From the NCBI RefSeq assembly GCF_000517105.1, contig NZ_KI912149.1:1513946-1577945 (forward strand): a stretch of 64,000 nucleotides of DNA, given 5' to 3'. Positions within the stretch are counted from its first letter, which is position 1, and each line of letters starts with the position of its first letter. The stretch is from Fischerella sp. PCC 9605. GTDB taxonomy: Bacteria > Cyanobacteriota > Cyanobacteriia > Cyanobacteriales > Nostocaceae. Shown here one piece after another: positions 58,016-61,214 of the stretch. Under the pieces are notes generated by a model, which saw nothing but the letters and a program-made list of their open reading frames with translations, made no database searches and was not told the DNA's origin. The translations under genes and the position numbers were made by a program.

Positions 58016-58030
58016 TAGTGGTCTATCGCA

Positions 58031-59252
58031 TTAATTTTGCTGGGTTGGATAAATATTTGAAAGCTTAACTCTTGCATCTTCTGTACGAAAGCTCCAATCC
58101 ACACAAACTTTGTTTCTATCACGTTCACATTCCCAACTCGAAACCTCTTTTTCTAAAGTTTTGGTATCGGGAATTCTTCTTTGAAGACATTGGCGTACAA
58201 GTACAGATAACTCACATTCAACCATATTTAACCCTTCGGGTTCGCCAGTCGCACCCTGCACCGAAGCCACCCTGCGGGCGTCTACATGGGGGGACCCCCT
58301 TTGGAGCGCGCTGGCTCACCAACTACCATGTTTGGGCGTATGATGAATCTCTAATTTTTTGGCAATTCGCCTTGCTTCCCTGGGCTCAAACGCTTCATAT
58401 AAAGCACTGATTGTATGAGTATTTAAGTTATCCATTACTAATCGAATTAGTTCTGCATCTGGAAAATGAATATCAACCAATTCTTTCATACAATTAGCAA
58501 AATCAATTTTAGTTCTTCGTTGAGTAACTTTAATATGCCTCCATCCTAAATATGAAGCAAAAAAGGCGAATAAATTACAACTGCCCAAAGCGTTCATATT
58601 CGTAATCAACTTTTTCCACTATTGGGGGTTTATTTTCTGTTTTTGGTGTTGGTGCAAGCGGTTGATGAACATCCCTAATTAATTGACACAATCTTTCATC
58701 GAAGCATACTAATGGGCGTTTTGGGTCAACACTTTGAGCAACCTAATCCAGTACATCTTCCATACAGCAAACAAATTCTGCACTAACTTGTGGGATGCAC
58801 CATTGTTCTTTTAACCAAGGTTTAAGTTCGTTTTTTTTAGTATGCGTCCTACTGTATCAGCACTAACACTGTCTACTATTTCTAGGCTAACTAACTTGTC
58901 TGCCAACAATTGTAATGTCCAACGCTAGTGTCCTGTTGGTGGCTGACTGCAAGTGGTAGCAATCACAAATGCCTCTGCCCTTGGAGTTAGCTTACGTAGT
59001 TTTCCAGGACGCTTACGCTCGCTTAAAGTATTTTTCAAATTTTCTTGGACAAACTGTTTGCGCGTCCTTTCCACTGTTGGCACACTTATGTGTAAAATTT
59101 TGGCGATCGCTTCCAGAAGTTTCACCTGACGCAGCCATGAGTAAAGTGTGCGCCCGACGAATCATTCGCGCCGTTGCTTTTCCTTTCTTCACTATTTCAA
59201 CTAACTGTTGATGCTGTTCTTGTGTCAGCTTTACTATGTGCTTTTTTGGTAT
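58031..59252 (-). pseudogene. IS630 transposase A, frameshifted and interrupted
   Basis: Minus-strand relic of an IS630-type DDE transposase. The probable start codon is now ATA (59250-59252). It begins with the helix-turn-helix region KKGKATARMIRRAHTLLMA, continues in another frame with ISVPTVERTRKQFVQENL, loses frame at PTGH-stop, and retains MKELVDIHFPDAELIRLVMDNLNTHT (second Asp) and YEAFEPREARRIAKKLEIHHTPKHGSW. An 87-bp repeat sits between GSW and LNMVECEL, placing a TGA immediately after GSW. The C-terminus RFRTEDARVKLSNIYPTQQN-like end is intact up to 58031. Confidence 0.8.
58231..58320. repeat. 87-bp repeat inserted in the IS630 A transposase
   Basis: Foreign segment starting CTTCGGGTTCGCCAGTCGCA and containing a GGGGGGACCCCC foldback, flanked by ACC on both sides (58231-58233 and 58318-58320), consistent with a 3-bp duplication. 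It separates the conserved GSW and LNM codons of the transposase. Confidence 0.7.
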
Positions 59253-59337
59253 AGCCTATTATTTGCGATCGCTCAACTCTCTGTTTCGATTTTAACCCTG
59301 CAAAATTAATGCGATAGACCACTAGTACTCTGTCCCA

Positions 59338-60602
59338 TTAATTTTGTTGGGTTGGATAAATCTTTGAAAGCTTAACTCTTGCATCTTCTGTACGAAAACG
59401 CCAATCTACACAAACTTGATTAATATTGCGATCGCCTTGCCAAGTTGAAACCTCTTTTTGTAAAGTTTCAATATTAGGAATTCTTCGTTGAAGACATTGA
59501 CGGACGAGTACAGACAATTCAGATTCAAGCATATTCAACCAACTAAGTGGGCCGACTGGAAAAAACCGAGCCAGCCTTTATTAATTAGTTTTCCTTTAAA
59601 GTCTCTCGTGGAGGTCGTCCCAGCCCGCAGGGCTGGGACAAGGCTGGCTCGCTCGGTTTTTTTGTGTCTATGTGCTTACCATGTTTCGGAGTATGATGAA
59701 TCTCTAAATTTTTGGCAATTCGTCTGGGCTCATCTGGTGCAAAAACTTCATATAAGGCAGCGATTGTATGAGTGTTTAAGTTATCCATTACCAATCGAAT
59801 TAAATCGGCATCGGCAAAATGGATATCGACCAATTCTTTCATACAAATTGCAAAATCTACTTTCGTACGACGCTCTGTGACTTTGATGTGTCTCCATCCT
59901 AAATAGGAGCAAAAAATGCGAACAAATTACAACTACCATTCCGTTCATATTCGTAATCATATTTTTCTACTTGTCCTGGCTTTTCTGAGGTTTTAGGGAT
60001 AGGTGGTATTGGTGAATGTACATCCGCAATTAATTGGCATAATCTCTCATCAAAGCATACTAGTGGGCGTTTTGGCTCAACTGGTTGACTATATAAATCC
60101 AGCACATCTTCCATTCTGTATACAAATTCTGAACTGATTTCTGGGATACACCATTGTTCTTTTAACCAAGGTTTCAGTTCGTTTTTTTTAAGATTCGACC
60201 AACTGTACTTTTACTCAAGCTATCCACTATTTCTAGACTCACAAGCTGGTCTGCTAACATTCTTAAAGTCCAACGTGTACTCCCAGCAGGTGCATCACTA
60301 CAAGTTGTTGCTATTAAGTATGCTTCCGCAAAATTAGTTAACTTTCTTGGCTTACCTGGACGCTTTTTCTCTTTTAATGTTTCTTTTAAATTTTCACAAA
60401 CGAACTGTTTACGAGTTCGCTCCACTGTGGCCACAGACACATGTAACGCTTGTGCTATTGTCTCATCCTTCTTGCCATCTGCTGCCATTAATTATGTATG
60501 TGCGCGACGAATTTCTCTGGCTTTTGCTGAACCCTTTGTGACTAGATCCAGTAATTCTTGCCTCTGCGAGATGCTGAGATTAATTTCATACTTCTTGTTC
60601 AT
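59338..60602 (-). pseudogene. IS630 transposase B, interrupted
   Basis: Minus-strand relic beginning MNKKYEINLSISQRQELLDL at 60602; a stop (TAA) interrupts codon ~34 after EIRRAHT, and reading resumes at LMAADGKKDETIAQAL. HVSVATVERTRKQF is the helix-turn-helix, SLSKSTVGRILKKT leads to a frameshift, and MEDVLDLYSQPVEPKRPLVCFDE then MKELVDIHFADADLIRLVMDNLNTH hold DDE Asp residues. A 133-bp insert follows HHTPKHG, after which LNMLESELSVLVRQ and the C-terminus resume. Despite nonsense and frameshift lesions most of the protein is recognisable. Confidence 0.8.
59546..59678. repeat. 133-bp palindromic insert in the IS630 B transposase
   Basis: Foldback with arms AAAAAACCGAGCCAGCC (59560-59576) and GGCTGGCTCGCTCGGTTTTT (59642-59661) and a nested perfect hairpin GTCCCAGCCC (59616-59625)/GGGCTGGGAC (59629-59638). 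It is inserted in the codons for HGSW, 5 bp away from the different insert in element A. Confidence 0.7.
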
Positions 60603-60819
60603 ACACCCTTTTTCCTTATGGGATCTCGGTGAAAATAAAATGTCGGTGCTCTATCAAATATATTTTGGCTCAACCCAAGGACTGGCGGGCGTTGCGCCCC
60701 CAGGCGCAACGCGAGGGCACGCTCCTTTTTGCGCCCGAGGATTGGCCTATGCACGCGATCGCCTGTCAGCTTGTGGGTACAGACGCACCCACATTGCTAT
60801 TTAATCACGATCTAGTGCT
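60603..60819. repeat. Extra segment at the right end of IS630 B
   Basis: Between the transposase start and the right inverted repeat lies about 215 bp not found in element A. It holds a perfect hairpin, GTTGCGCC (60691-60698) with GGCGCAAC (60703-60710), plus GCGATCGC-bearing sequence. It looks like a dispersed G/C-rich repeat inserted in the element. Confidence 0.55.
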
Positions 60820-60830
60820 ACCCAACAAAA

Positions 60831-61214
60831 TTAATGGGACAGACCACTAGATGCATCTCCTCGATCGCGAAGTTTCTGGTGATTAATTTGACTGAAGTGC
60901 TGAACAGCCCAGTCGTGCATCGCATAGAGAATTGGTTTAAGACTTTCCCCTAAAGGAGTGAGCGAATATTCCACCTTTGGGGGTATTTGTGCATACACCT
61001 GACGATGAATAATACCATCTTCTTCCATTTCCCTGAGTTGCTGCGTCAGCATTTTTTGCGTGATCCCTGGCAATGTTCGCTGCAACTCGCCAAAACGTCT
61101 GACTCCAGCCATTAGTTCTCTAATAATCAATACTTTCCAGCGTCCGCCTATCACCTTCAGCGTGGTTTCCACTTCGCACGTGAGTCTGTTGTGATTTTCT
61201 GCTTCAGCTTTCAT
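60831..61214 (-). CDS. HxlR-family transcriptional regulator with IS-derived C-terminus
   Basis: A 127-residue winged-helix regulator. TLKVIGGRWKVLIIRELM, RFGELQRTLPGITQKMLTQQL (recognition region) and the DGIIHRQVYAQIPPKVEYSLTPLG wing are characteristic of HxlR/YodB-type redox or aldehyde sensors; a Cys at position 13 (LTCEVETTL) is the usual sensor residue. The last residues, SGLSH, and the stop come from the inverted repeat of IS630 B, inserted at TA 60848-60849. The conserved domain is intact, so it may still function. Confidence 0.85.
   Translation of the reverse strand: MKAEAENHNRLTCEVETTLKVIGGRWKVLIIRELMAGVRRFGELQRTLPGITQKMLTQQLREMEEDGIIHRQVYAQIPPKVEYSLTPLGESLKPILYAMHDWAVQHFSQINHQKLRDRGDASSGLSH

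Follow-up and report, generated by a model that had tools for sequence, protein, structure and literature searches.

A small TGAGCC hairpin repeat occurs recurrently at a single codon of IS630 transposases in Nostocaceae

The window analysed is a stretch of 64,000 nucleotides from the 8.08-Mb genome of the cyanobacterium Fischerella sp. PCC 9605. All relatives used for comparison belong to the same family or order. Two adjoining IS630-type elements, A and B, are located on the minus strand of the window (Table 1). Both have the DDE_3 transposase (matched at 5.5e-11 in element A) and the TA/CTAG-flanked terminal repeats, ending in CTAG, by which IS630 elements are recognised. A run of eight A on the coding strand is kept in the orfA/orfB overlap of both elements (58832-58840 and 60186-60194), which agrees with the programmed frameshift typical of IS630 elements. 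Element A carries further frameshifts and stops outside its insert. A GC-rich stretch of ~150 bp (GCGTTGCGCCCCCAGGCGCAACGC..., 60640-60850), situated between transposase start and terminal repeat, is found in B and is absent from A; it is possibly another nested repeat. A further B-type element (L011, C6:2700587-2701421) has an internal deletion that starts less than ~10 bp from the HGSW/LN region and ends at a CCACTAT match, its remaining parts being 98-99% identical.

Table 1. Features of elements A and B in positions of the window. Here and in the text a slash within codons or residues marks the insertion point.
Feature	Position	Strand	Remarks
IS630-type element A	58016..59324	-	terminal repeats TAGTGGTCTATCGCATTAATTTTG / CAAAATTAATGCGATAGACCACTA; transposase frames degenerate
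A transposase, C-terminal part downstream of insert	58031..58231	-	LNMVE..., predicted catalytic Glu, to stop
87-bp hairpin repeat in A	58232..58318	-	TGAGCC...CCCGAAGGG on coding strand, after Trp codon of HGSW/LN
A transposase, part upstream of insert	58319..58609	-	second Asp region, ends HTPKHGSW
IS630-type element B, adjacent to A	59324..60849	-	from A/B alignment and terminal repeats
B transposase, C-terminal part	59338..59538	-	NMLESELSVL...
133-bp insert in B	59546..59678	-	TA[AGTGGGCC...GTGCT]TA, between Gly and Ser codons of HGS

Alignments of A and B to each other and to intact relatives place an 87-bp insert in A and a 133-bp insert in B within the HGSW/LN codons, with empty sites 5 bp apart, as the initial annotation had claimed. 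The A insert lies between TGG and TTA (W/L), its boundaries being ambiguous by up to 3 bp owing to ACC at both ends; uninterrupted relatives such as Nostoc desertorum read ...AAACATGGGAGTTGGTTAAATATGG... here. The B insert is located at GGTA/GTTGG (G/S), and its 133 bp count one copy of a duplicated TA. The two inserts were described as dissimilar, and this is borne out: the sequences are unrelated and a common origin is rejected.

At the insertion point in B, the TA is duplicated (empty site CAACTACCATG versus filled CAACTA...TACCATG). The insert is palindromic and ends in a terminator-like hairpin. One near-full copy, also TA-flanked, and two fragments are present elsewhere in the genome, and scattered partial matches occur in the genomes of relatives. 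No relative of this repeat was found at the same position in other IS630 copies. The insert looks like an ordinary TA-target MITE. It resembles Tc1/mariner-type MITEs in its subterminal inverted repeats and in the TA at both ends, but differs from them in that an autonomous parent was not found and only two near-full copies were seen. Since element B contains ~100 TA dinucleotides, 2 of them within ~5 bp of the site used in A, an insert near that site is unremarkable and is most simply due to chance. For two random positions in a 1.3-kb element, a distance of 5 bp or less has p ~0.008, a post hoc figure. The reading in which both inserts are accidents, two unrelated repeats having each entered the best-conserved part of adjacent IS630 copies without any preference, fits the B insert with its TA flanks, low copy number and lack of a second case at the position. 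It is highly improbable as an account of A, whose position recurs in at least seven lineages and in one orientation.

The A insert read in frame 0 gives HGSW*ASALQRG...GEPEGLNMVE. The stop at its first codon, which had been pointed out before, is a real TGA, and the frame is open after it and continues into the downstream half. With its conserved ends, TGAGCCA and ACCCGAAGGG, and its central hairpin, the insert is a member of the TGAGCC...CCCGNNGGG family, at 87 nt in place of the 56/57-nt family length. The hairpin GCCAG...CTGGC plus CCC-GAA-GGG is found in most folded variants of the family. The repeat has ~46 BLAST matches in the genome, many of them inside heptamer arrays such as (GTTGGTT)n. 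A known structured RNA was ruled out as its identity, as no Rfam covariance model matched up to E 1 at five insert-bearing loci. The interrupted element A has a second copy at C12:137926, 100% identical over 1099 bp and with other flanks; A was thus mobile after its interruption, and presumably transposed in trans after the insert had arrived. The A insert is a decayed example of a real, recurrent phenomenon.

A tblastn survey of the relatives gave split matches at query position 171/172 (W/L) in five other genomes. At each of these, TGAGCCA follows TGG directly and CCCGAAGGG (once CCCGTTGGG) directly precedes the Leu codon, which varies (TTA, TTG, CTC, CTT, CTG). The middles of the inserts vary as well, with lengths of 56, 79, 80 or 87 nt, usually 56, so that enlarged repeats of 79-80 nt are also found at this site in other IS630 copies. 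No target duplication is seen. A junction pattern matched 22 places in 12 of 218 family genomes, compared with 4 matches of a reversed control pattern; 21 of the 22 are in IS630 context (11 genomes, 7 genera), the match in G049 being outside it. The repeats at W/L are always in coding orientation and occur in several IS630 subfamilies of the Nostocaceae, including a distant branch (HSSW/LNQIEIWF). Members of the family at other IS630 positions or in reversed orientation were not seen; the junction pattern covered the W/L place and one orientation only, while the tblastn screens were free of that restriction. Thus TGAGCC inserts in IS630 are not scattered evenly but all lie at W/L. Repeats of other types are found elsewhere in IS630 transposases, near query positions 129 (L077, Okeania), 58 (L218, plasmid of Nostoc cf. 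commune) and 46 (L157 in G032), and another small CGTAGCGTCTC-type repeat lies further downstream in the transposase of L183. In L188 and L175 a secondary growth of 24 nt is present inside the repeat. A search of the PDB for mapping the insert site returned no relative.

On the IS630 tree, the inserted state requires nine changes, at least seven of them on well-supported branches, and therefore the insertion recurred; judged from this tree, the inserted state has arisen, or has arisen and been lost, many times. The real excess is at the codon used in A, at which members of this repeat family are present in independent IS630 lineages. A single ancient IS630 insertion, spread by recombination between subfamilies and rewritten by gene conversion in each genome, is a quite unlikely source of this distribution. 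The short homology tracts could rest on the conserved flanking codons, and repeat variants are indeed genome-specific: in G486, two IS630 subfamilies bear that genome's own variant. However, exchange would be required between IS630s with ~50% identity and also across IS630a and the HSSW branch, and independent equivalents would be needed in TnpB, IS4-, IS1182-, DUF29- and MazF-like genes. On the tree, moreover, empty copies are found in between the insert-bearing ones.

The element was found in 61 of 210 genomes by patterns that cover its entire 56 nt together with the left flank. The host genes include TnpB, other transposases, DUF29 and a MazF-like gene, and the Pfam matches among them are DDE_Tnp_1, DDE_Tnp_1_2, IS1, OrfB_IS605, DUF29 and a methyltransferase. 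In many host families, long ORFs are restored by in silico removal of the repeat, which is near-identical across hosts, partly since the search patterns required such sequence. By our reading of the motif, several of the sites appear to lie a few residues from the conserved Glu motif of DDE transposases. In the first sample, 17 sites were in sense and 2 in antisense orientation. All 13 of the TnpB copies tested are read through in frame. An antisense repeat, also in frame, lies near the same conserved TnpB motif (GM(V/I)RN^HxLAK) in L349 and L358. In the MazF-like toxin gene (L359-L361 in G405, G071 and G495; also G431), a 57-nt hairpin is located at codon 4. Its first codon, TGA, takes the place of the stop codon that ended the overlapping ORF upstream, and both frames thus survive.

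The length of the repeat is related to the codon phase of the insertion. Among distinct gene sites on the sense strand, assembled by hand into a table after the data were seen, the 56-nt form is in phase 0 at seven sites and in other phases at two, and the 57-nt form is in phase 0 at none and in other phases at eight (Fisher p 0.002 for the first sample, with later sites excluded). TGG is in phase 0 in 22% of cases in the ORFs of the window, and against this expectation 7 of 9 for the 56-nt form has p 5e-4. The seven sites are IS630a, the IS630 HSSW branch, ERW/W, RRW/Q, ISW/W, DUF29 RSRSW/L and IS5-like LNW/C; in phase 0 the 56-nt form always follows a Trp codon. The first codon of the repeat is then the stop TGA, giving UGGUGA with an overlapping GUG. 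The overlapping GTG frame (GTG AGC CAG ...) is stop-free and, 56 being 2 modulo 3, leads on into the downstream half of the gene. Its predicted peptide in Nostoc sp. UHCC 0302 is VSQCVGRVPRLEATGEPEG-LNQVEIEL. The 87-nt copy in A does not join this frame. As an IS630 gene has 5-6 Trp codons, phase alone is insufficient to explain the constant use of W171.

The 57-nt form is found in phases 1 and 2, where it can usually be read in frame. Once this rule had been formulated, a further search yielded three new sense sites, L350 (601-codon ORF), L351 (547-codon ORF) and the MazF-like gene (L359-L361, several genomes), all with the 57-nt form, outside phase 0 and readable. This search, directed at the 57-nt form, also gave antisense sites that are likewise readable. 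The openness of the 57-nt form says little by itself, since antisense and most sense frames are open anyway; more weight attaches to the link of phase with length. This link has exceptions. The 56-nt form occurs in phase 1 in ISAs1-like L224/L274 and in phase 2 in L292/L289, and in L247/L290 it lies antisense within an IS1634-like gene. Some copies of the 57-nt form (L265, L300, L208 and some of those in IS1182) contain an internal stop.

Site-specific homing, in which an enzyme or RNA recognises the HGSWLN coding DNA of IS630 and other conserved transposase motifs and the frame effects are secondary, could account for the identical position in at least seven lineages. It also agrees with the age of the inserts, which post-date the divergence of their hosts (0-4 differences at a host dS >1), and with the near-identical core copies, which in 8 chosen genomes lie mostly in IS630 at the W/L codon. 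It is nevertheless an unlikely explanation. The flanks of other copies have only NTGG or GG in common, the IS630 targets differ at many synonymous positions (TCATGG/CTT, TCCTGG/CTC, AGTTGG/TTA), and a rule at the level of DNA predicts no link between repeat length and codon phase. The initial annotation had suggested a preferred site, or a location that leaves both halves readable. For the A insert this stands, on the same W/L codon, the single orientation, the seven or more changes forced on the tree and the match of length to phase across unrelated genes. The B insert lends it no support, being another kind of element, flanked by TA on either side, with ~100 TA choices and with no relative found at the position. 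The window therefore does not present one preferred site used twice.

Both halves of interrupted genes are under purifying selection in three pairs, namely the IS630 pair L180/L189, the syntenic DUF29 pair L267/L268 and the TnpB pair L259/L279. The tests of the C-terminal halves, with p 0.02-0.03 for IS630 and DUF29, are modest in strength and assume that the insert is ancestral to each pair. Between L180 and L189, insert-bearing IS630 copies of G038 in a supported clade, dS is 0.43 and dN 0.035 upstream, dS is 0.17 and dN 0.033 downstream, and the insert is unchanged. The DUF29 and TnpB pairs follow this pattern too. In copies mobilised in trans, purifying selection could be inherited from active relatives. 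Three of the interrupted IS630 copies of G038 are identical and a fourth differs by 1 nt; no uninterrupted full-length IS630 copy of this genome is among the matches listed. G433 (L325, L363) has six near-identical copies of an IS4-like transposase gene, which all hold the 57-nt form, in frame, at one shared codon, an amplification after insertion. On the plasmid of Nostoc sp. UHCC 0302, the PGAP/NCBI annotation has two abutting ORFs, the second starting at GTG. Taken at the level of sequence, these observations are consistent with continued function of the interrupted genes; the copy data can also be explained by movement in trans and by homogenisation through gene conversion.

The explanation that we consider probable is that the A insert is a coding-tolerated mobile hairpin of the Nostocaceae at a recurrent permissive W/L site, the B insert being a separate chance MITE. 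The intact family form would be 56 or 57 nt long, consisting of TGAGCC, the hairpin and CCCG-NN(N)-GGG, and would insert without target duplication, usually directly after NTGG. Within genes, the hairpin would persist mainly where translation can continue, and may be retained there by selection. In phases 1 and 2, the 57-nt form would usually add 19 in-frame codons. In phase 0 after Trp, the 56-nt form would create UGG-UGA, at which the ribosome may terminate the first half and restart at the overlapping GUG, in the frame that crosses the repeat into the second half. The W/L junction beside the catalytic Glu of IS630 transposases would be a permissive site occupied repeatedly in different lineages, and insert-bearing copies would have multiplied after insertion. 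Element A would descend from such a copy and would have decayed and been mobilised in trans, its repeat having expanded to 87 bp. The B insert would be an independent TA-target MITE whose arrival close by was accidental. A further and more tentative suggestion, possible but rather doubtful, is that a minimal hairpin with its own stop-restart signal, inserted behind a Trp codon next to the catalytic Glu, turns a transposase into two translationally coupled, cooperating polypeptides, while the 57-nt form passes through other genes as an in-frame peptide; if the halves still cooperate, the interrupted transposons would keep multiplying.

Genes interrupted by in-frame palindromic repeats are of an already known kind, the Rickettsia palindromic elements (RPE) and intragenic REPs (PMC3733652; RPE in PMC5656822). 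By analogy, the TGAGCC hairpin resembles these, since both are short structured palindromes inside protein-coding genes. The in-frame insertions lie in genes that are probably still functional, and the 57-nt form is alike in being read in frame (TnpB 13/13). The 56-nt form and the A insert are not read in this way; the 56-nt form instead gives a stop/start overlap after Trp. The TGAGCC family further differs in being cyanobacterial, in its unrelated sequence and in having mainly transposases as the hosts found. Its ends, TGAG and AGGG, have neither a sequence relationship to RPE or the CGTC tag nor the GTAG tag of RAYT-associated REP (both tags as given in PMC3733652).

The small dispersed repeats (SDR) of Nostoc punctiforme described by Elhai et al. 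2008 (cited in PMC4390886 and PMC3733652) are a second point of comparison. Likenesses are the very small mobile Nostocales hairpins, the nested insertions and the copies in heptamer arrays. SDRs are reportedly 21-27 nt long and defined by other sequences. The TGAGCC repeats are longer, and SDRs are not known for recurrent gene-internal, phase-dependent placement. Translational bypass elements are known from T4 gene 60 and from the mitochondrial byps. They are similar in being hairpin inserts of ~50 nt whose first codon, immediately following a sense codon, is a stop. In the TGAGCC repeats, however, the take-off codon TGG does not match GGG, the last codon before resumption, and bypass was ruled out on this ground. 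A dependence on phase and length is also unexpected for bypass.

No description of TGAGCC-type placement was found in the literature searched. As far as this search extends, the cyanobacterial family, its recurrence at a single codon in transposases and the two-length phase rule are new. Palindromic repeats within genes are known as in-frame passengers from Rickettsia and certain other bacteria. A cyanobacterial hairpin family unrelated to these, found many times at single codons of unrelated genes and in two lengths that differ by one base and suit different codon phases, offers a testable system for the survival of very small mobile DNA within genes, and possibly a natural split-transposase arrangement. 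Many transposases that Nostocales annotations show as 'broken' may carry tolerated insertions and not be simply decayed.
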